In this document: positions 7,649 to 21,620 of the stretch, piece by piece
How positions within the stretch are numbered: position 1 is the stretch's first letter
Layout of the letters: the number at the start of each line of letters is the position of its first letter
Source: Myrmaecium sp. VS I D KN 1
Taxonomy: Eukaryota > Ascomycota > Dothideomycetes > Valsariales > Valsariaceae
NCBI GenBank assembly: GCA_019775845.1
Contig: JADQAV010000015.1
Coordinates: forward strand, 434,001 to 498,000
Direction: 5' to 3'
Length of the DNA stretch: 64,000 nucleotides
Program-made: the position numbers and the translations under genes
Notes under the pieces: generated by a model
Databases searched by the model: none
Told to the model about the DNA's origin: nothing
The model's input: only the letters and a program-made list of their open reading frames with translations

Positions 7649-8450
7649 GCTGATTGTTTGGAGTGATTTCGTGGTGTTGATGATCTGGAGGGAGAATTAA
7701 GAAATCCGTCGTCGAGAGGGTTTTAGGTGGTGTAGGATTGGCGAGGACGTGCAAGGCTGTCGATGAAACGGCGTTGAGTTTATTAGTCCGGATTAGTAGG
7801 GCGGGCGGGGTGTCTGTCGGCGTTGAACTTCGGCACGGGCCGACAGACTGCCTTGCTCAGGCATCGTGGATTACATAATGGACTGTGATCTCACCTTTTT
7901 ATATAAATCATCACATCTATTGATCTGAATGGGAAGAGGCTTGATTTAGATCGCAGCCTTCGAAATTCGCCTGTCTGCATACTCACCGGCACAGTCTATT
8001 GGATGACAATCCAATACCAACAGCTTATCGGTAGGATGTCAACGAATTAGTAGGTGTCGGATATCACAGTGACTATAGTCCCAGCTCCGAATCCCCTTCT
8101 CAGGACATCCTCAATCTTGATTGTCTCCAGCCCAGCTTTCACCTTCATATAGGCTGATCGGCAGCGAGCATGACTTCCCTCTCGCGGTTCACGCAACTAT
8201 TTATGAAATGGTTCGGGGTTTCAGGCCGGGTAGGATCTTCACTGGATACTCTAGGTAGTTAGTAGAGGGCCATACCGTACCGTACCATGCATACGCCTGC
8301 GGGCACAAGGGGGATCGCGATAATATTCAATGAAGGAGCAACGCGGAGGGAAGTCTGTAAGTTTCCTCATGATGGTCATCTTTTCTCCGTCCGCTATTTC
8401 GCTGTCGCTTCGAAGGGAAGTCCAGCAGGAGTTTGCTCAAGGGGAGAAGT
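7649..8450. other. Gene-free region upstream of the DUF3074 gene
   Basis: Promoter and leader of the minus-strand DUF3074 gene, then unassigned sequence. A perfect 7-bp inverted repeat ATTGGAT / ATCCAAT separated by 4 nt sits at 7998-8015 and includes a CCAAT box. A short ACCGT repeat lies near 8275. No coding frame is convincing. Confidence 0.5.
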
Positions 8451-9600
8451 AGGACGGATGACCAATTAAGCACATCAATATAGGAATAAGATACTACTAG
8501 ATCCCTACTATAGGTACTATGAGCAAATACTGTAGTCAACTGATATGAATCACAAGCGTATAAGATTCAGCTGAGATTGATACTGTACTGTACCGCACTT
8601 GAAAGTTAGGACTCTGAGCCAGCCGATACGAAAATGGAAGGACGCTAAAGCCCGTCGCTCAGACGCTTTCAACCTGTCACCTGAAGTTATCGCCCCCTCA
8701 CCTATGGCATGGCAGCCTTAGTCCGAGCAGCTTATTGACAGTAGTTCCTATTAGCGTTCGAAAGGGTTTCATGTTCAATGTCCACCGTCCTGTTAGATCA
8801 TGCCATTCCCCTATCTATAGATTTGAAATCACCATCATACATCCCCTTATAAGACCCTGTGATAAGATCTAATATCGTGGTCTCTCCTAATAGATTAATA
8901 TAGGAAACGAAGCTCACTGTCGTTTCTATAATTAAATAGGAGAGATCTGGAAATACTATAAGATCTTAACGTGTATCCCTGTATCTCTAAGATCTTTAGG
9001 CTTCCTTTATATCGTACTGGGCTTGCTTTTGAGTCTAAGCGTCTAACGGCCGCGTTGTTTGGTAAAATACATCCAATCCTGCTCTGTTAGGTGCTTAGAG
9101 ACGCTTATATATAATAATATGCCCCTACACCTAAGTAAGGTATATGGGTGAGGACCTATCCTTTTAGAGATAGGTATATTAAGGTGCATACCAGCGTCGG
9201 CGATACCATCCGTCAGCGTTAATTTTTCTAAGCGTTAATAAGCTGATCGCTCATCAGATCTGACTAATTTAGAAAACTATATCGGGTATCTGAACCGCCC
9301 TAAAGGTTTCTACTTCTCTTCCTCCCTCTTCCTTCTAACTCTTCCTCTAACTTCTACTTAGACTTCTCCGAGTCAATCTAACGGCAGCAATGAATTTTCT
9401 TATACTTAGAGAAGAGAGATGAATTATAAGTAAAGCTTAACGCTATACTATGAACGAAGCGGCACGGGAAATTTAGACCTCTTATAGACTGGTAACGTGT
9501 TATCTTATATCATTTCTCTTTTCCCTTTAGTATCTTCATACTACCCTAGTCCTACCCCCGTCTCATTCTCTTTATGCCGTCGGTCTGCGAGCGGGCAGAG
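8450..9600. repeat. TpA-rich, RIP-like decayed sequence
   Basis: Base composition shifts to AT-rich with very frequent TpA and sparse CpA/TpG compared with both flanks. This is the signature expected of repeat-induced point mutation or an old decayed repeat in Pezizomycotina. No open frame of note, no terminal repeats and no recognisable transposon protein are seen. The motif AAGATCT recurs (near 8873, 8961, 8987). The judgement is by eye; a dinucleotide index was not computed. Confidence 0.45.
8881..8945. repeat. Imperfect inverted repeat (hairpin)
   Basis: The left arm (8881-8910) and right arm (8920-8945) are near reverse complements: TCTCTCCTA...GGAAACGA pairs with TCGTTTC...TAGGAGAGA. 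The arms are about 26-30 nt with a 9-nt loop and a few mismatches or gaps in the middle. It could be the core of a miniature inverted-repeat element or a structured RNA. No target-site duplication is evident. Confidence 0.6.
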
Positions 9601-12600
9601 TGATAGATAAGAGGAAGCACGTAGATTTAGACTCTCTGATCTCTATATCTTTTAAGAGTAAGAAAACGACAAAAGGAGACAGTGGAAAATAGAAGGATAG
9701 GAAAAAAAGGAAGAATAACAAAAGCGTTACTGATAGGGTGCGTGCACGGTATGTGTGAACAAGGAACAGAAACTTGGCTTTCTTCCTCAATATTACGGAA
9801 AACATCTCAAGGAATCTGGATGCAACAGCACCGCTTACCGGGCGAGCAGACAGACAGATGGTTGGATGGATTAAAAAAAACGACGTCACAATGAAAGGAG
9901 GAGAGAAGGAGAGGAGCATACTTCCACTGCATACTACATATGAACATACGTACATAGATCGTCTAGCATATATACTACACATACCTAAAACACTAACTCC
10001 ATCCATCCATCCATCCGCTCCACTAAGCCAACACAGCTCACGACCGCAGAGCTCCCCCTGTCGTTCTATAATACAGCACATACCGAGACTTACAGATGGG
10101 GTAGAGAAGAAGCGGGCGGAGTAAAACGTGCGCTCGTGAAAACGAAAAGAAAGAATGGCTATGGAAGAATGTGTGGCTGAGCGGGAAACCGCATAGCACC
10201 TGTTCCTCATCTCCTCTCCTCTTTAGCAGTGAATAGCCAATTAGGCTCAGCTCAGGTCAGGCCAGGCAGGGGGTTCGGGGTAATCGAATCACAGATTTCT
10301 CCCTACTGTACCTATGTACTGCTGCTGCTATTGTTGTAACAGGGCAGAAAGAAAACAAAGCAGAAAAGCAAACAAGAGAAAGCAACCCCAGCAAAGCGAC
10401 TGGACGCTCTCCTTCCTCCGCCATCTCAGACCACACCACACGCACGGAGAATAGTCCGAGGAGGAGGAGGAAGAGGAGGACGGTCGATTTCACTTCTGCT
10501 TCTCCGCCACGCAACCACCTCAGCCCTTCCCACCATACATTACCTACGCTACTTGCATGCGTTTTCTACGTGCCCTACCTTCCCTCAAATTGTGCAGGTG
10601 GCTGCTGCCGGATACTCACAAGCGATAGGGCGCAGGGTGAAGCGAGTCATACTATACATACGCCTACAACTGCGCTGCGCTGTCACGCATCATGCGTCGC
10701 GTCCCATCCACGGTCGTGTCACAAGAAGATGGGAGGGGAAGAGAAGGGTAACAGAATGGAAATACGAAAGAGGATGATACGTCAGCAGCGGAAGCAGAAG
10801 CAGCAGAAGCAGCAGGGGCCGGAGCGGGCGTATAAGCAGTAAAAAAAGCAACCATGTAGCGTAACCGGTGGTGGGCGTGGCGTTGCTTCCTGCACGTACA
10901 TACGTGCCACGAACGGAAGGATTAAGGGCTCCCGGACACGGCCATTGAGAAGTGTAACCCAGGTCGTCGAGAGATGTACGGCAGACAATGGATATCGGCA
11001 GTGGAATTCAGAGGATGGGAGGCGGTGTAGCATGGTAAGTGGTATATGAATACATTGAAGCAAGCGTCGTTGGCAGAGGATGGATATGCACATGCGTTTG
11101 TCCATCCGAAGGCTTCACCGTCTACCTACCTTCCTTGAGAAATAGGTCCTAGAATAGAAATCTGGATCGTGGTCATGGAAATCGCAAGACCATGGACAAT
11201 GCGATTCTCTGCGGTCTGTTCTCTACACTGTGGTAGATGGAAGTCCAGCATTCAAACAAACCGACATGGCATGACGCTCAGTCGGCGGTGGACGGGGAGC
11301 GAGGATCAACAACGCAGCCAAGACCGTGGCGAAAGGACACACATGAAGGGAAAAAAAAAAGAGCGAACGAGAAACGATGCCGATGCGCACACACACAGCA
11401 TGATAAAAATCCTCGGTTACATGCCTTTGCAGTCGCAGAAAGACGGTTGATTCGACGACTGCTCAAGTGGCTTCGTCCGACTCATGCGATTGCTGCGCTG
11501 TTCCAGGATGTTCCTGGAAGCAACAGAGCGTCGAAGATCGGTAGGGTCTAGAAAAAGCCCTTCTGCACTGCGTGGAGCGACGAGCTTGGGAGAAGACTAT
11601 TCCGGAGGTCAGGCCGGAGGGTGCATGTACCACCGCCACCCTATCGATGAGTGGACGGATTCGGTCTGAGGACTGTCTTGTTGGCAAGAGAGAGCTCGGA
11701 AGGACAGTGATGATCCGATGGTCGAGGCCGTGCTTGCCTATTCCCGGACGTGCAAGCTCTCCGGTGAGAGGAGAAGGGGAAGTTTGGCAGTGCGAGAGAT
11801 TGAGCCAGGAGGGACGCGCATGTACATCAGTCGGTCGTGACTCGCCAGGCGAAATCTATGGGGTAATCCAGTCGAGGCCAGAGGAGATCAAAGGGCTCCT
11901 ATCCGGATTGCCTTGACTGGTCTAGTAGTGGGGAAAGGACGTGGGGACAGACGGCATCCCGAGCCTACTAGCATCCATGATCTAGAGTGCTGTCGACTGC
12001 GACTATTGAGTGGGGTTAGTGGGACCTGAAGAACGCAGCGATTCCAGAAGATCGTGGTGGAGCAAGCCCACTTGAGCATTGAGGCTCCGCAATATTGCTC
12101 AAGATAGACCAAAGATGTGAGTGGACCAAGAAGCGAGACCACTCAAGAGGCCGACGGTTGTATGGAGACTCCGCTGGAAAAAAAGTCCTGTATCGCCAAT
12201 GAGCGGTGCATCCTTACGGCTACCGATAGGTAGATACATCCCCGAGCCAGTCGTCAGTGTTGGGTTACTGCTTCTGTACTTTGTGGCAGACTCGAGGGAA
12301 TGTGAGGCTGACTTCACTTCAATGCTGTCCATAGTCAGTTCGGAGTCCGCCGGCTCGACGACAGTTTCTCATCTGTGTTGTCTGCTCTGAACATTGAGGT
12401 GCAACGCTATTGCGTGCATGGAGCTTCGACGAGGCAGGATAGTCGCGCCTTCCGTGTAGAGCCCGCTGGCCAAGCCGGTCCACATGCGGTGCACGTAGCC
12501 CTGAGAGATCCTCCCGCGGTGGCTTCGACGCCCGTTCGGGATCTTTGGGAGCGACAGGGCCCGGGGAGGGATGATTTGGTGATCTTGCTGCTTGCTGCCA

Positions 12601-13650: not shown

Positions 13651-16581
13651 AAAACCTGTACCGACTGACTCCGTACAGGCGCTCCCGTCCGTTCTCTCGT
13701 ATCAACCTAACAGACTCACCTTCATCTTCGCCTTCCAGGTTCGCCTTCGCCATCTCCGCTCCGACCGCTCTTCCGCCCGTGGCCATTCCTCCGCCGCTGC
13801 TGAAGACTCGGACGCTCCTCAGGCACCATCGTCATCACCAGATTCTCACCACCGTCATCATCTCCCTTCACCTCCCAGAGGCCCATTACCCATCACCCAT
13901 CAATCACCATTCCTCCCCTTTCCCCTCCGGAGAGGCACGACGCCCAATCGCACGGCGCCGTCCACCTCCACCATCCCAGACACGCGGCCACTGCTGCTGC
14001 TAAATTAGCAACTGCACCACAGGCATATTACCCGATCGGGCCTCATCCACGCCCGGTCGCCCTTCGCTCGCACCCTCTCGCGAAGACTCCCAATCCGGTG
14101 TCCGCCAACCTTCCTTCAGGTCTTTTTCGCTGGACGCCCATCCGAGCGGGCGAAGACGGGAAGCAACTGTCACCCACTCACTCTGCCCTCTCAGCCTTGT
14201 CAACCTACTACCTCCCCCTTACCTCCCTTCCGCCTCACCGCCCTTGACCCTTCGGCCATCCACATGTCGCCAGTCGTCCCGGTGCATTTCACTCATCGCA
14301 TTCGAAAGCAAAAGTACCGGCGACCGATCCGGTGGAAGTCCTGAGAGACCGTGAAAGAATCCCAGAGACGGGGCCAGAGAGAAAGAAGCACGAGAAGAAA
14401 CGCACGACGCGCTTCCTGGAACACGCTTGACCTGCACGCTCCCAATCCCCATCCTCTCCTCCTATTTGTCGTCCACCCCCCCTCCCCTCCTCTCTCCTCC
14501 AACCACAACTGCGACAGAGCAACGCCCTCAGCCATCAGCCTGCTGCAGGCCGTCATCATCCCTGATTACACCAGGCAGCTGGGCTGTGCACTTCATTTCT
14601 TGAGCACAGAAAAAGACACCTGCTCGCCTTGCTTGCCCTTTGTTCCGTCTTCCGCATTTCCCCACCCTCACCCGCCTAGGCGATATCGCCCACGCCCAAA
14701 TCACTCCGTCCTCAAGCGCCGAAGGTATGTACGCGATGTCTCTTTTCCCTTGATGTCTCAGTTTTCCTCTCGACTTGTTGTCACGATCACGGAACGTTGG
14801 AGCAGGCCGCCGTGAGCAGCAGCCCTTTTCCAGTACATACTCGTACTCGATAAAAGTCCCTTGGTTTCAGCCGGGTTGGGCCGCGGACAGGGATGGGCCG
14901 TTGCCGTCAGGCTCTCTCCGCCCTCAGAATGTCCCCCGAGAGACGATGGAGGGGCAGAGATGGAGAGAGGCGCGACCACGGCCTCTCGGATCGACGTTTC
15001 CAGCCCTGTCACCGTCGGTTCATGAGGATCCTCCCTCCATCCATCATCCCCTCCCGTCATCCCCTCATCTGCCCGCTCCCTCTTCGCCACTCCCCCTCCC
15101 ATGTCTTTCTCCACCATCCACCACATCCCTCCACAACTCCAACCCCAACCCCAACCCCAACCCGTCGGTTGTCCAACCACGCACGACTGCCGACCGCCCT
15201 TGCCTCTGCTCCTGCCGCTTCTCCTTCTGATTCTTCCTCTTCCTCCTCTTCTTCTTCTTCTATCGTCATCGTACAGCGACATGCGGGAAGTTCGCAGATG
15301 CTGACCGAGATGCGCATTAGACAGACATACTCAATTCCCCCCTTCGCGCTCTGGCGGTTGATCACGACCGCGCCGAGAACCTCTCTCGCTCACGAATCAC
15401 GTCGCGTCGGTGCATCCGCAACCTCATCGACGTCGGCCGTCAGGTGCCTGCCTCACGCACACCGTCCTGGGCGCACCTCAACCAGGAAATCCGTGGAGAA
15501 GTGGTGGTGTGTCAGGCTGACGGTGCCCGGCAAGGATCCGTCGTCCCTTGGTCCCTCCGTGCCTTCGTCTCTCTCCACCGTCTGTGCGACTGGCCGGTCC
15601 GCTTATCGATCGCTCAGGTCGCCAGGCGCCCCCCCCGCTGAACGCCCCCATCGTCCCCTCCCGCCCCCGGGCCCGGCAGCCAGTCAGTAGCGCCGGCAAC
15701 CCTCCTAAATCCCACCACTCGGCGCCCAATTCAATTTTTCCGCTTGTGTTGATCGGCCCATTCGTCCACAAGGGAAAAAAGTACACACAGACGCACACAC
15801 ACACAAACAAACTCCATCCTCCATCCTCCATCCTCCATACATATAAACACTCACCCACCCTCAACCTCACCCTCGCCCTCGCCCAAAGAGTCACCGGGCA
15901 TCTGCTTCCCTCCCCCTGTGACGCCTCTCCGGCCGAACCGCTGCACCGTCAGCTGCCGGCGCACGCAGCATCCCCGTCCGCCTCGTATCGAGTGCCTGTC
16001 GCCCTCGCATACCCGCTCGACGCCGTTCTGGCCCCGGGTCGACCGCGTGTTTATCATCGGCCCAGGTCCCCGCCTTGCTTCAGCGCAACCCTGCCTGCGA
16101 CCCTTCTCAAACGCCCGAACGCCCACCACCACCATCACCACCTCACCTGTGTGGGATCACCGCTCAAGACCGACGAATCAGCCGTCAGCCCTATCGGCTC
16201 CGTCGCAATCACTGTCCGTGTTCTTTACCGACACCTCTCCTCTCTTCCCCTCCATCCACTTACTCCCCTCCCCTCCCTTCCTTTTCTTCTACACTCCTCC
16301 TCCATCGGATCACTGAGCGCTCTTGCTCGTCGACACATTCCCGGAGAGCCGCTCGCGACGATTACACACGGCAAAGGGAAACTGGGCATTGTGAAACCTT
16401 CGACGTCACGCTGGTCCGACTGACCGCGGCACGCCACGGATCCATTCCCACCCTCACCATCGCCCCGCCAACGAGGTTATCTTCGCTCGACCGTTCTCTG
16501 GCAGAATAGGTCCGGCGGGATATTTCCTTGCTTGGTCACACTCTCATGCCGTTAGTCATCACCCTCCCCAAAGACCAACCA
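13650..16581 (+). promoter_or_regulatory. Pyrimidine-rich upstream region of the CaaX scaffold gene
   Basis: Plus strand strongly enriched in C and T for nearly 3 kb, including CCCAAC-type repeats near 15135-15165, CA repeats near 15785-15810 and CATCCTC repeats near 15810-15837. Such CT-rich strands are typical of fungal core promoters and long 5' leaders. It ends at the ATG at 16582. A long transcript leader with upstream AUGs is likely but not proven. No protein-coding gene is recognised here. Confidence 0.45.
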
Positions 16582-19458
16582 ATGTCGCGTCGCGTCACTC
16601 CCCGACGTCGAGCTAGATCTGCTTCGACGTCCCGTGCCTCCACCTCCCGTTCCCGTTCCACTGCCTCCCGCCATTGCATGGCCAGCTCCACCTCCTCCGC
16701 AACGTCTCGCGGCGACACTAACATCTTCCTGCCTGCTAGGAAAAACATCACCATCAGTCACCACACCGGCTCGGAGCGCACCAGCATCTCCTACTCCGAC
16801 GAAGACGAATCGGGCGTGCACCTGCGCTCCCCCTCCACCGGCAGCCAGGAAGAATACTCGGAAGGCTTCAGCGGGGAAGACGAGTGGGACGACATCGTTT
16901 ACGAGGAGGAGGCTTTCGAGGAGCTTGACCCCTCCGACTCCGCGTCCCGACCTCGTGCCCACAGCAAGCACCGCTCCGTCGCCAGCTCCGTTCCGCCCCG
17001 GGCGCCCTCCCAGCCCGGCTCGACCACTCGGCGCAAGGCCTCCGCCCGTCCTCACCCGGCGCACGTCGTCGACGACCATCATCAACGAAACAGATCACAC
17101 AGCGGTCGGCGCCGAGCAGCCCGGGAACCGAGGGATCACTACGGCCGGCGGCCTCAATCCGTCGACTCCGAAACCCTGGAGCACGACGACTACCCGGGTT
17201 ACCCCCGGATTCCCCACCACCCTTACCCCGGGTGGAGCCATATCCAGGCCTCGAATGGGTATGCGCCAAGCCAATTATCCGCCGTCCATCCGCACCAGCC
17301 GAACCCCTTCAGCCAACAGCCGGGACCTCTCGTGCCTTTGTCGGGAGCGGAGCCATATGGCTACCCGAATCCCTTCAGTCAGCCGGCACATGGACAGCCC
17401 AACCCATTCGCGCCATCCACGGGCTCCACGCCCGCTCATGGATATGGCTTCCCGGACCCGTCGCAGCCACCCCAGCCGGCCAGGCGTGGCCATCGGCAGT
17501 CACTCCCGCCGCTGTCGCACAGTCAAGAACTGATGGCTTACAATGCTAGCACGCCTTACTACTCCCCCTACACGGGCTCGCCTTACGGGATGCCCCCGGG
17601 CATGCCGCCCATGCCGGGAATGGGCATGCCTCCCGGAATGCATCCCATGCCTGCGTTGCCTGGCCCGCCCGGTATGCCACCCTACGGTTACCCGCCTTAC
17701 TCACCCGTTTCACAGCCGCATACACCTACTCCGCCTCCGCCTCCGCCTCCCGCCCCGAAGCGAACAGCTTCCGCTCCTGCTGCCGAGGCTCCTCCGCCAG
17801 CAGAGTCTGCCCTGGTGGTCGCTGCTCCCCCGCCGCCACCAGCGCCCGCACCACCACCGCCGCCGCCGCCACCACCACCTCCGCCCCCACCTCCAGAGGA
17901 AGATCCCCGTTTCCTGGCGCTCGAGAGGATCCTCCTCGGCAAGGAAGAGGAGAAGGAGAAGAAGAAGGAGGACGAGAAGTTCTCGCGGCTTGAGCAGCTC
18001 CTCATCGAGCAACAGGAAGCGCGCATTCGAAAGGAGCAAGAGAAGAAGAAGGCTGCCGAGGAGGCTGCGATCGCTGCTGCCGAGGCGAAGAAGAAGAGCG
18101 ACGAAGATAAGTTGGCGAAGCTCGAGCAATTGATCTTGGCCCAGCGAGAAGAGCAGCTGCAGCGCGAGGCGGCGGCCGAGGCCGAGCGTAAGGCTGAACG
18201 GGAAGCTGCCGAAGCCCAGCGTAAGGCGGAAAGGGAAGCTGCCGAAGCTGCCGCGGCTAAGGAGGCTGCCGAGAAGAAAGCGGCTGCCGAGAAGGCGAAG
18301 GCATTGCTCGAGGCTGCTCAAAAAGCAAGGGAAGAGGCCGAAGCCAAGGCTGCGAAGGAGCTTGAGGCGGCTCAAAAGGCACGGGAAGAGGCGGAGGCTA
18401 AGGCCGCTAAGGAAGCCGAGGAGGCCAAGGCTGCCCATGAGAAAGCCCTCGCGGAAGCTGAAGCCAAGGCCGCGAAGGAGGCCGAAGAGGCGAAAGCGGC
18501 CCATGAAGCCGCCCTTGCCGAGGCGAAGAAGGCAGCCGATGAGGCCGCAGCCGCGAAAGCTGCCGCCGAAGCGCAAGCCGAGGCCGCCAAACCGAAGCCG
18601 GACGAGACGCAACCTCCCATTAAGTTTAAGGACGCGGTCGGCCGGAAGTTCAGCTTCCCGTGGCACCTGTGCAAGACGTGGAAGGGCATGGAGGAGCTGA
18701 TCAAGCAGGCCTTCCTACACGTCGACATCATCGGACCGCATGTCCATCAAGGACACTACGACCTCGTCGGTCCTGACGGTGAAATCATCTTACCTCAGGT
18801 CTGGGATGTGGTCGTCAAGCCTGACTGGAGCATTACCATGCACATGTGGCCGATGCCCGAACCTTCACCACCGACCCCGGAGTCGGAGTTTGACTACCCG
18901 CCTATGCCTATGCCAATGCCAATGCCAATGGCGATGCCGGCCCCGCCGCCTCCGCCGCCAGTTCCACAGGCCACCATGCCCATCGAATATGTTCAGCTCC
19001 CGATCATTCCCAAGAAGACCAAAAAGAGCAGCAAGCAGAGGGCTCCGCCGCCCGTGGAGGTCATGCCTCCCTCTCCTCCTCCACCGCCGCCCCCGCAACC
19101 GGCCGCGGCCGCTCCACCTCCACCTCCACCTCCGCCGCCTCCTCCCCCACCACCGCCACCGCCGGCGGCGGCTCCCCTCCCTCCACAGGAAGTGGTGGTT
19201 CTGGAGCACCATCCCGCCCCCAAGCCGACCAAGAAGCCGCAAAAGGTGCCCGCATTCCTAGCGTGGACCGCAGGCGGGCAATATCAGTCTTTAAAAGGGT
19301 TAAAAAAACCTGAGAGCATCTCGACGAGCCCGACCGCTTCGACGCACCACGGTAGCAGCAGCAGCAGCAGTAGCAGCAGCAACAACAACAACAACAACAC
19401 CCGTCCCTCGGCTGTGAACGGACATGCACAGCAGCCGGAGGGATGTGTGGTGATGTGA
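16582..19458 (+). CDS. Proline-rich coiled-coil protein with ubiquitin-like domain and CaaX box
   Basis: Single-exon protein of about 958 residues. From the N-terminus: an Arg/Ser-rich basic start; an acidic stretch (EDEWDDIVYEEEAFEEL); a Pro/Tyr/Gly/Met-rich region; a polyproline tract (about 417-436); a long Ala/Glu/Lys coiled coil (about 440-670) made of repeated KAAKEAEEAKAAHEKAL-type units; a fungal ubiquitin-like domain of the ULD_2 type (about 680-758, IKFKDAVGRKFSFPWHLCKT ... WDVVVKPDWSITMHMWPMP); Met-Pro repeats; a second polyproline tract; a Ser/Asn tract (about 925-939); and the tail CVVM. The tail fits a CaaX prenylation signal, with final Met favouring farnesylation. The function is unknown; I infer a membrane-tethered scaffold. 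I chose the ATG at 16582 for its context (ACCAACCAATG) and basic start; in-frame ATGs at 16528 and 16546 would add 18 or 12 residues. An unusually long gene-free region lies upstream. Confidence 0.75.
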   Translation: MSRRVTPRRRARSASTSRASTSRSRSTASRHCMASSTSSATSRGDTNIFLPARKNITISHHTGSERTSISYSDEDESGVHLRSPSTGSQEEYSEGFSGEDEWDDIVYEEEAFEELDPSDSASRPRAHSKHRSVASSVPPRAPSQPGSTTRRKASARPHPAHVVDDHHQRNRSHSGRRRAAREPRDHYGRRPQSVDSETLEHDDYPGYPRIPHHPYPGWSHIQASNGYAPSQLSAVHPHQPNPFSQQPGPLVPLSGAEPYGYPNPFSQPAHGQPNPFAPSTGSTPAHGYGFPDPSQPPQPARRGHRQSLPPLSHSQELMAYNASTPYYSPYTGSPYGMPPGMPPMPGMGMPPGMHPMPALPGPPGMPPYGYPPYSPVSQPHTPTPPPPPPPAPKRTASAPAAEAPPPAESALVVAAPPPPPAPAPPPPPPPPPPPPPPPEEDPRFLALERILLGKEEEKEKKKEDEKFSRLEQLLIEQQEARIRKEQEKKKAAEEAAIAAAEAKKKSDEDKLAKLEQLILAQREEQLQREAAAEAERKAEREAAEAQRKAEREAAEAAAAKEAAEKKAAAEKAKALLEAAQKAREEAEAKAAKELEAAQKAREEAEAKAAKEAEEAKAAHEKALAEAEAKAAKEAEEAKAAHEAALAEAKKAADEAAAAKAAAEAQAEAAKPKPDETQPPIKFKDAVGRKFSFPWHLCKTWKGMEELIKQAFLHVDIIGPHVHQGHYDLVGPDGEIILPQVWDVVVKPDWSITMHMWPMPEPSPPTPESEFDYPPMPMPMPMPMAMPAPPPPPPVPQATMPIEYVQLPIIPKKTKKSSKQRAPPPVEVMPPSPPPPPPPQPAAAAPPPPPPPPPPPPPPPPPAAAPLPPQEVVVLEHHPAPKPTKKPQKVPAFLAWTAGGQYQSLKGLKKPESISTSPTASTHHGSSSSSSSSSNNNNNNTRPSAVNGHAQQPEGCVVM
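17815..17895 (+). repeat. Polyproline-coding CCN/GCN repeat
   Basis: Low-complexity tract of CCN codons with a few GCN codons, encoding the first long polyproline run of the scaffold protein. A second, similar tract lies at about 19066-19170. Such tracts commonly bind profilin, SH3 or WW domains. Confidence 0.8.
19353..19398 (+). repeat. AGC/AAC trinucleotide tract coding Ser then Asn
   Basis: A run of AGC (one AGT) codons followed by AAC codons encodes about nine Ser and six Asn residues near the C-terminus of the scaffold gene. Slippage-prone microsatellite; length probably varies between strains. Confidence 0.85.
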
Positions 19459-19486
19459 GTAAGCTTGATCCGAACATGTGGATTAT

Positions 19487-19531
19487 TGCTTTGCTTTGCT
19501 TTGCTTTGGTTGCTTTGCTTTGCTTTGGTTG
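19487..19531 (+). repeat. CTTTG pentanucleotide repeat
   Basis: Tandem TGCTT/CTTTG units with two interspersed GGTTG variants, about 45 bp, in the probable 3' untranslated region of the scaffold gene. Confidence 0.85.
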
Positions 19532-20780
19532 CGCAAATACCGAAATCGAAGCTTGTAATTATGGTCGGGCTCCGCTCTCAGGAGGCATGGTTTTCCTCCC
19601 GTGGTCACCTCGCGGGTCTTTCGTGCCTCACCTCACTTGGGGATGATGATGATAATGATGATGAAATTTTTTTTCTTAACGAGTCATGAGTGATGGAATG
19701 TTGCAGGGTTTCATTTTACTGTTGATCTGCGTATGGTGTTTGGATACTTTCTTTGGTCCTTTTTTTCCCTTGGTCTTTTGTCTTGTAGGAAAAGGGGGAA
19801 GGGGAAAACCTAAAATATTCTTACTCTCCTTCTCTTTCTGTTTCCTTTCCCTTTGACTTTGCTCGTTTGCTTGTATCTCACCCCTTCTTTGCTTTGGGTT
19901 TATGTTGTATGGTTACGCGCGTTCGAAGGACCTCTAAAAATGGCGTTCTATGTAATAGCACCTCACCCCTTACTTCCCATTCTCCTTCTTTCCTCTCTAT
20001 TACCGCCCTTGCTTTTGCACAGCAACGAAGCAGGTGTTTCGAACAAAAACGCCGAGGGGATTGTTCAACAGACAAAAAAGGAAAAGGTCCGTATGATTAA
20101 CCCACCTATCCATCTCTTAGCGCGCGCCCTTGTACACGCGGATAGTTCGATACCCAACCCTTTTTGCTGGATGGGGAGATGGACGAGATGGAGAGTGATT
20201 GTGAGGGATAGTCTCGGAGGATTTCAGAGCTTCTCTTTCTCTTATTCTGCTCTTCTTTTATTCCTCCTTCCTTTCCTTCTTTGTTTTATATTTGTTCTAT
20301 TCTGTGGAGATCAGATGTTGTATCCATCAAAAAGCAATTTTTATCGAATGGGAGAGTGGTGTTGTTACCGTCGTGATTAAGCGCCGGCCCCGGCGGTCCT
20401 GTCCCCCCTTGAAACATCGCCGTGTCGTTACGTGATGCTCTCAACCAACCCACCCACAACCTCCTCACGCGCGCGCGCGCCGCCTTGGCCTGGGGTTATG
20501 GGGTACCGTCGGTTGGTATCTGTTGCTTGGTCTCTCGTATTCCTCTTGCTTGGGGTTTTTGGTTCTTTGTTTCGTTCTTCATCTAAGCTTGTTCTTTTGA
20601 TCTTCATCTTCTCCTCTTTCCTTGCCGTTTCTTTTTCCTTTCTACACTTATGCTTATTCTCTTCGTTATTGCGCTTTTTGTTGCTGTCTTTATTGTTTAT
20701 TCTTTCCCCTTCGCTTTCTTGTCTTATGCTCATGCTTCCTTCAATCGTCGGACTTCAACAGACCAACTATTCCTTCACCA

Positions 20781-20830
20781 TCTCCCTCTCCTCTCCCTCT
20801 CCTCTCCCTCTCCTCTCCCTCTCCTCTCCT
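20781..20830 (+). repeat. 12-bp CT-rich tandem repeat
   Basis: About four copies of a CTCCCTCTCCTC unit ending some 20 bp before the ATG at 20851, so within the probable 5' leader or core promoter of the CAP-domain gene. Confidence 0.85.
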
Positions 20831-20850
20831 TCCATATCCACCCCTCAAGC

Positions 20851-21620
20851 ATGCGCCCACACCCCCTCCTCATCCTCCTCCCCACCCTCACCACGGCCGC
20901 CACCACCTCACCCGAATACACCTCCCCCACCACCTTCCAATCCGCCATCCTCACCAGCACCACCACGTACCGTCACACCCACAACGCCAGCGCCCTGCTC
21001 TGGAACAGCACCCTCGCCCACACCGCCAGCCTCTGGGCCCAACGTTGCCTCTTCGCTCACAGCGTTCGTCTTCCCCCCTCCCTCCATAACTCCCCCAACT
21101 CACCCTCCTTCCCCTGTTCTCTAGGCCGGTCCCACAGGCGAAACCCTCGCCACCGGCTACTCCTCCGCCACCGCCGCCGTCAGCGCCTGGGCGGCCGAGG
21201 CGAAGCTGTATGACTTCGCGCACCCCGGGTTTCGCGAGACGACGGGGCATTTTACGCAGTTGGTGTGGAGGGGGTCGTCGGGGGTGGGGTGTGCGAGGTG
21301 GGAGTGTGATGGGGATGGGGATGGGGATGGGGTTGGGGGGGCAGAGGAGGATGGGGAGGAGGGAGGAGGATGGGGTGACGAGGGCCTGGGGCTGGTTTGT
21401 GGTGTGTGAGTTTTGGCCGCCGGGGAATGTGGTTGGGGAGTTTGAGGAGAATGTTTTGCCGGCGGTTGATGATGAGGGGGATGAGGATGGGGATGAGGAG
21501 GAGGATGATAGTCCGTATCCGGGGCAGAAGAGTGGCGCGTCGGCTGTGAGGGTTTGGGGAGCTTGGTGGGTTTTGTGGTGCTGGGTTGGGGCGGTTATTG
21601 GAGTTTTGGTTGGCGTGTGA
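20851..21620 (+). CDS. CAP/PR-1-like secreted protein, probable GPI anchor; frame conflict
   Basis: Member of the CAP superfamily (fungal Pry/PR-1-like proteins, often secreted sterol- or lipid-binding). The signal peptide is MRPHPLLILLPTLTTAA. Exon 1 (20851-21063) ends AQRCLFAHS. An intron of 61 bp (21064-21124) with donor GTTCGT and acceptor CTCTAG joins to AGPTGETLATGY. CAP motifs follow: AVSAWAAEAKLYDF, HFTQLVWRGSSGVGCARWEC, then VVCEFWPPGNVVGEF. The last block lies in a different frame. Between the two is a GGGATG-repeat stretch with a run of seven G (about 21308-21345), and the first frame ends at 21407-21409. One extra base, or a short intron I cannot define, would explain it. The tail after the CAP domain is acidic and ends in a hydrophobic segment (VLWCWVGAVIGVLVGV), as in GPI-anchored proteins. 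Confidence 0.6.
21308..21341 (+). repeat. GGGATG repeat with G7 run inside the CAP gene
   Basis: Four GATGGG units followed by GGTTGGGGGGG. It encodes Asp-Gly repeats in the CAP frame and is the likely site of the length change that splits the CAP reading frame. Confidence 0.75.

Follow-up and report, generated by a model that had tools for sequence, protein, structure and literature searches.

A putatively prenyl-anchored ULD_2 protein with NPF motifs, polyproline tracts and a long predicted helix in the ascomycete Myrmaecium

Epsins and AP180 are endocytic adaptors that carry NPF motifs. To our knowledge, such NPF-bearing adaptors bind the membrane by folded lipid-binding domains and not by a prenyl group, and the endocytic adaptors of fungi in general are, as far as we know, attached to the membrane by folded domains. 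MUBs, which we take to belong to the family PF13881, are small proteins. A prenylated MUB is described, at the beginning of the abstract of one paper, as binding an E2 and regulating its activation (PMC4996978), and the NPF motif is presented as a ligand of EH domains in passages on the endocytic protein Pal1 (PMC10672141). Here we compare with these systems a gene at positions 16582..19458 (+ strand) of a 64-kb stretch of DNA from Myrmaecium sp. VS I D KN 1 (contig JADQAV010000015.1, positions 434,001 to 498,000). We call this stretch the window, and all coordinates refer to it unless otherwise indicated. The 958-residue product contains a ULD_2 ubiquitin-like domain, three NPF motifs, polyproline tracts, a long predicted helix and a C-terminal CaaX box. 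Our favoured reading, which we put forward tentatively, is that this protein may be a prenyl-anchored cytosolic adaptor of hyphae that acts at endocytic sites or actin patches.

The frame at 16582..19458 is very probably coding, given its length and the in-frame ULD_2 match. It runs from an ATG at 16582 to a TGA at 19456-19458 and encodes 958 residues that end in CVVM, as the original prediction for this locus had it; the enclosing stop-to-stop frame has 982 codons and is open from 16510. The GC content at third codon positions ranges from 0.48 to 0.83 across the gene frame, with values of at least 0.60 in 18 of 19 intervals, and falls to 0.45 and 0.35 in two intervals 3' of the gene. A synonymous-codon score is above 0 in 17 of the 19 intervals, yet the gene frame is the best of the three in only 8. 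Because another frame outscores it in the other 11, this score discriminates poorly, and we dropped codon usage as a proof of the frame.

The ULD_2 domain (PF22893; 18607..18858, + strand, residues 676-759) had been proposed originally from the letters of the sequence, and the profile search bears this out: it is matched at an E-value of 1e-37, scoring 128.7 bits (cut-off 24.5), over profile positions 2-85 of 85. It is the only Pfam match in the 958-residue protein at E-values up to 1, and the longer frame gave the same result. In a model predicted by AlphaFold from the single sequence, the domain shows the order strand-strand-helix-strands, which is compatible with a ubiquitin-like fold, although this model has low confidence (predicted local distance difference test, pLDDT, 45.6; predicted template modelling score 0.29). 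A search of PDB sequences for relatives of the domain gave none that was convincing, the best matches (E-values of 0.67 and 0.054) being to unrelated or designed proteins. In the open-access literature, searched under the family name and PF22893, none of the matches listed describes a role for ULD_2, as far as their titles and the beginnings of their abstracts show.

We searched the whole genome by profile (25.66 Mb in 66 contigs, of which the window is 64 kb) and obtained two ULD_2 matches. The only gene found besides the one studied here is a paralogue (C35; L003:3382-5904, - strand), whose ULD_2 domain is interrupted by a 60-nt intron and is 46% identical to ours over 76 residues. The second part of the paralogue, taken as a single exon, is an 840-residue open frame; it shows a CorA-like match (PF01544; score 31.4 bits, cut-off 27, E-value 1.6e-7) and several hydrophobic spans toward its C-terminal end. 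Neither exon of the paralogue contains an NPF motif. In the 958-residue protein, no hydrophobic span exceeds the threshold that was applied to the paralogue. The CorA-like transmembrane fusion gives a hint that ULD_2 domains are membrane-located in this genome. Given that its two ULD_2 proteins carry two different candidate membrane anchors, we hypothesize that ULD_2 could be a membrane-side interaction module. We regard this pair as the most interesting point of our study, with a basis of two genes and two putative anchors.

The candidate anchor of the protein studied here is its terminal CVVM (19444..19458, + strand, including the stop codon). As originally noted, this is a CaaX-type end. 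When the protein was shuffled 50,000 times, a strict CaaX end never arose, and a loose one arose 5 times. CVVM is also the C-terminus of N-Ras. The protein is poor in cysteine, with three in 958 residues (32, 697 and 955). The genome has matches to the prenyltransferase family PF00432 at three loci, which are not sorted into farnesyl, geranylgeranyl or Rab types, and two matches to ICMT, one of them strong; the ICMT family also matches in 5 of 14 control genomes. The canonical CaaX box in a Cys-poor protein, the prenyltransferase-type and ICMT genes and the CorA-like paralogue make a membrane tether plausible from this single sequence, and we think that the protein probably carries a prenyl anchor.

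A different real C-terminus would remove this anchor. The sequence GTGAGTAAG (19455..19463, + strand) is a splice-donor consensus that overlaps the stop codon and may mark an alternative 3' end; splicing at this site would make CVVM internal and the product a soluble, unprenylated scaffold. The + strand of the window has a single copy of it, at the stop codon of this gene, and no other GTRNGT is present in 16300-19700. However, suitable partners for this donor are scarce. There is no CTRAY branch site in 19455-19800, and none of the YTRAY sites up to 20300 is a CTRAY. Among 11 acceptors tried, only three lay at a suitable distance from any YTRAY. The nearest of them, at 19706, implies an intron of 252 nt with TTAAC as its branch site and a gain of VSFYC only, whereas the intron of the paralogue has 60 nt. 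We thus consider such an alternative end to be very unlikely.

The case for an endocytic role comes from the three NPF motifs, which the original prediction did not mention. They begin at residues 241 (17302..17310), 263 (17368..17376) and 274 (17401..17409), all on the + strand, and thus lie inside 36 residues of the Pro/Tyr region. Residues 200-383 were shuffled 20,000 times without once giving three NPF motifs, and the mean was 0.03. No other frame of at least 60 amino acids on either strand of the window has two or more, and ten Pfam-matching frames together have 2 NPF in 5,507 amino acids. The NPF-bearing region (16546-17715) has no Pfam domain. The contexts of the three motifs resemble each other, so all three may derive from one motif by internal duplication. 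EH domains are encoded at four loci in the genome, with 7 matches.

Both of the polyproline tracts that had been predicted are present, at residues 384-438 and 788-861. The first block (17731..17895, + strand) contains P7 (residues 384-390) and P15 (424-438), and the second (18943..19164, + strand) contains P6 (788-793), P7 (832-838) and P17 (845-861). Runs of up to 17 prolines would, in general, fit ligands of profilin or of SH3 domains; there is one profilin locus in the genome. A Ser/Asn tract encoded by triplet runs (19354..19399, + strand) likewise corresponds to what had been described.

It could be proposed that the NPF-rich linker reflects general low complexity, comparable to that of Dsk2/ubiquilin, and that the protein is an adaptor of the ubiquitin pathway or of proteostasis whose ULD_2 domain engages ubiquitin-type receptors. 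In fact, a Dsk2/ubiquilin-like gene in the same genome (L004:1321-2977, + strand), which encodes both a ubiquitin domain and a UBA, likewise pairs a ubiquitin-like domain with NPF repeats, having six NPF in its second frame. However, the 958-residue protein contains no UBA, STI1 or E3 domain, since Pfam gives ULD_2 only; ULD_2 is a Pfam family distinct from the ubiquitin family of Dsk2, and a terminal Gly-Gly is absent. This explanation therefore appears quite unlikely to us.

Between the first polyproline block and the ULD_2 domain, a coiled coil of about 230 residues had been predicted. This claim was not confirmed. Instead, AlphaFold predicts from the single sequence one unbroken helix of 214 residues rich in Ala, Glu and Lys (17905..18546, + strand, residues 442-655), with a pLDDT of 69-94 per ten-residue block except for the last few residues; in the model that spans the helix, the accompanying domain is of low confidence. 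At 0.15 nm per residue, this helix would be about 32 nm long. The power of a hydrophobicity scale at a period of 3.5 is 0.00 for residues 440-539 and also for residues 540-675, and L, I, V, M, F and Y occupy, in the best register, at most 24% of the a and d positions in the first of these segments and at most 5% in the second. Twelve tests of helical periods (A, E, K/R and ALIVM over three segments) gave no significant result, the lowest counts being 192 and 200 of 1000 shuffles. The signal nearest to a heptad was that of Ala in residues 440-539, with a best period of 3.54, which was matched by 200 of 1000 shuffles. We therefore rejected a classic coiled coil, as these periodicity tests do not reveal its heptad pattern of large hydrophobic residues. 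A hendecad helix was suggested by periods of 33 and 66 bp in the DNA and by an Ala-rich register, the best among 11 (67% versus 39% LIVMFYA). We set it aside because a period of about 3.65 was not significant (171 of 1000 shuffles); nor did Ala or ALIVM give significance when residues 540-672 or 560-672 were taken (192 to 806 of 1000 shuffles).

Like-charge pairs at i,i+3 and i,i+4 along the helix are depleted in both halves (14 versus 25.5 +/- 4.1, and 13 versus 26.5 +/- 4.0). Residues 540-675 have an excess of K/R-to-D/E pairs (30 versus 13.3 +/- 2.9). In the first half, both directions of oppositely charged pairs are moderately raised (19 and 18 versus about 13). The depletion of like-charge pairs, together with the lack of a hydrophobic seam, recalls the single-alpha-helix (SAH) domains. 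Despite this lack, we rejected a classic SAH on composition: E, K and R together make up 48% of the first half and 44% of the second, and Ala makes up 47% of residues 540-672. The helix thus fits neither the classic coiled coil nor the classic SAH composition. When the helix region was searched against the genome, it matched only itself. A separate observation is that three motifs of the form LE-[RQ]-[LI]3 lie unevenly spaced near the helix start, all on the + strand: LERILL at the start itself (17920..17937), LEQLLI (17989..18006) and LEQLIL (18121..18138). It is possible that they constitute a repeated docking motif.

In the favoured reading, Cys955 would bear a prenyl group, most likely a farnesyl, that anchors the protein to the membrane. 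Next outward, about 195 Pro-rich residues, among them polyproline runs and clusters of basic residues, would form a tether, beyond which the ULD_2 domain would serve as a binding module. The Ala/Glu/Lys helix, if rigid and monomeric, could act as a spacer and carry at its distal end the other polyproline block, followed by a disordered N-terminal arm with the three NPF motifs. These motifs would recruit EH-domain endocytic proteins, and the polyproline runs would recruit profilin or SH3 proteins, so that the partners would be held both at the membrane and up to tens of nanometers away from it. If the interpretations of both the NPF motifs and the CaaX box are true, a lipid-anchored adaptor would be added to the endocytic network of fungi.

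The original prediction had envisaged a membrane-tethered scaffold of polarity or of the septum. Its more general part remains plausible, namely a tethered and multivalent scaffold or adaptor, while the assignment to polarity or septum receives no specific support. According to that proposal, the same anchor would be present, and the polyproline runs and the helix would organize actin or septal components instead of endocytic sites. Passages of PMC10023807 report that disordered regions, in one case proline-rich, suffice for some Spp proteins to accumulate at septa upon wounding, and passages of PMC7275032 on SPZ-1 and JNS-1 describe polarity scaffolds of Neurospora with predicted coiled coils. 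However, the term CaaX is absent from the main texts of four papers (PMC10023807, PMC7275032, PMC5345055 and PMC2690989) that deal with septal-pore, Woronin-body or Spitzenkorper proteins. The main texts of PMC10023807, PMC7275032 and PMC2690989 do not contain "prenyl", and those of PMC7275032, PMC5345055 and PMC2690989 do not contain "ubiquitin". In PMC10023807, the last term occurs 11 times; the passages seen deal with ubiquitination, with degradation mediated by ubiquitin and with the CUE domain that SppC carries, and not with a ubiquitin-like domain. The helix, moreover, has no heptad, and a polarity or septum scaffold leaves unexplained the NPF motifs, which suggest the EH network of endocytosis instead. 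We therefore judge this explanation unlikely.

It is important to emphasize that several observations weigh against an endocytic adaptor that is prenyl-anchored and extended by a helix. As to the anchor, there is neither a Cys for palmitoylation near CVVM nor a polybasic stretch directly upstream of it, and the donor consensus that overlaps the stop codon is a strong one. As to the helix, D/E-to-K/R pairs in residues 540-675 show no excess (13 versus 13.1), and in passages of PMC5812594 it is bridges from E to R or K that stabilize a helix more than those of the reverse direction. The same source states that designed repeats with at least three Ala per heptad aggregate; with its very high Ala content, the helix might aggregate or self-associate. 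As to the binding sites, PPxY, FPPPP or LPPPP and class-I SH3 motifs are absent from the protein, in which only three loose class-II matches were found, and the six NPF of the Dsk2-like gene indicate that runs of this motif in proteins with ubiquitin-like domains can have other reasons. The model of the ULD_2 fold is poor, as its pLDDT indicates. Finally, we saw no relative or orthologue in collections of viral, prokaryotic and plasmid DNA (viral_contigs, genome_contigs and plasmids), a result that is uninformative on fungi, and the CaaX box and NPF motifs therefore rest on one sequence.

The 5' end of the gene allows some variation. A candidate intron of 189 nt (16551..16739, + strand; GTTAGT...CTAAC...CTAG) keeps the frame. 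If it is spliced, the protein would start with MPKNITIS, its first 53 residues being replaced by MP, and Cys32 would be lost. An alternative in-frame ATG lies upstream at 16546. In the 2-kb bins of the window, the stretch 14001-18000, ahead of and into the gene, has a strongly negative GC skew (values of -0.31 and -0.27 for its two bins), and the portion of it that is non-coding may represent a long, C-rich 5' leader.

Family matches of neighboring frames comprise Eisosome1, mS41, WD40, PEX1, MCM7, MFS, PALP, P-type ATPase and histidine-kinase, by which we judge the window to be an ordinary ascomycete region. Downstream, the frame 20587-21210 (+ strand) matches the CAP/PR-1 secreted-protein family (PF00188; score 22.1 bits, cut-off 21.1) and could be exon 1 of a gene for a secreted protein. 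Positions 8001-10000 have a GC content of 0.43, compared to 0.49-0.64 in the remaining 2-kb bins, and may represent a decayed repeat; there is no frame of 200 amino acids in 7857-9574.

We return to the comparison with described systems. The open-access literature was searched for ULD_2, ubiquitin-like domains combined with polyproline, coiled coil and CaaX, CaaX or prenylation together with the septal pore, prenylomes, disordered or proline-rich septal-pore proteins, coiled-coil proteins of the polarisome or Spitzenkorper, prenylated ubiquitin folds, and NPF and EH. Among the matches listed, no title or beginning of an abstract describes this architecture, which does not prove it to be unpublished. 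Like MUB/UBL3, the protein combines a ubiquitin-like fold, here a putative one, with a CaaX box, so it might be thought to be a large variant of the same principle, in which a prenylated ubiquitin fold binds and regulates an E2 at the membrane. However, the family differs, as ULD_2 is the sole Pfam match and is set within a 958-residue protein, with about 195 residues between this domain and the CaaX box. We rejected an identity with MUB because the family is the wrong one, and because the single PF13881 match of the genome is the Dsk2-like gene, with its ubiquitin domain and UBA; even a shared principle seems to us highly improbable. With SAH domains, the protein has in common a long charged helix that lacks a hydrophobic seam and is depleted of like-charge i,i+3 and i,i+4 pairs. 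It differs in having 47% Ala and 44% E, K and R in residues 540-672, where SAHs have up to 80% E, K and R according to passages of PMC5812594. The composition is also similar to that of the Ala/Lys/Glu helix of TolA, but TolA is a bacterial envelope protein, and its match to this fungal helix (TIGR02794), which is below threshold at 26.4 bits against a cut-off of 59.45, looks compositional.

The resemblance to NPF-bearing endocytic adaptors such as Pal1 lies in several NPF motifs within a region free of Pfam domains and in an expected association with the membrane, while ENTH, ANTH and Pal1 domains are not among the Pfam matches of this protein. Whether filamentous fungi have a whole class of such adaptors is doubtful; in it, CaaX-held ULD_2 proteins would project NPF and polyproline sites on a 32-nm helix, and sister ULD_2 proteins would have CorA-like anchors. 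By its domain score, the gene is a clear member of the ULD_2 family, and it is distinguished from the other member in its genome, the CorA-like transmembrane fusion, by its helix, polyproline tracts, NPF motifs and CaaX box.

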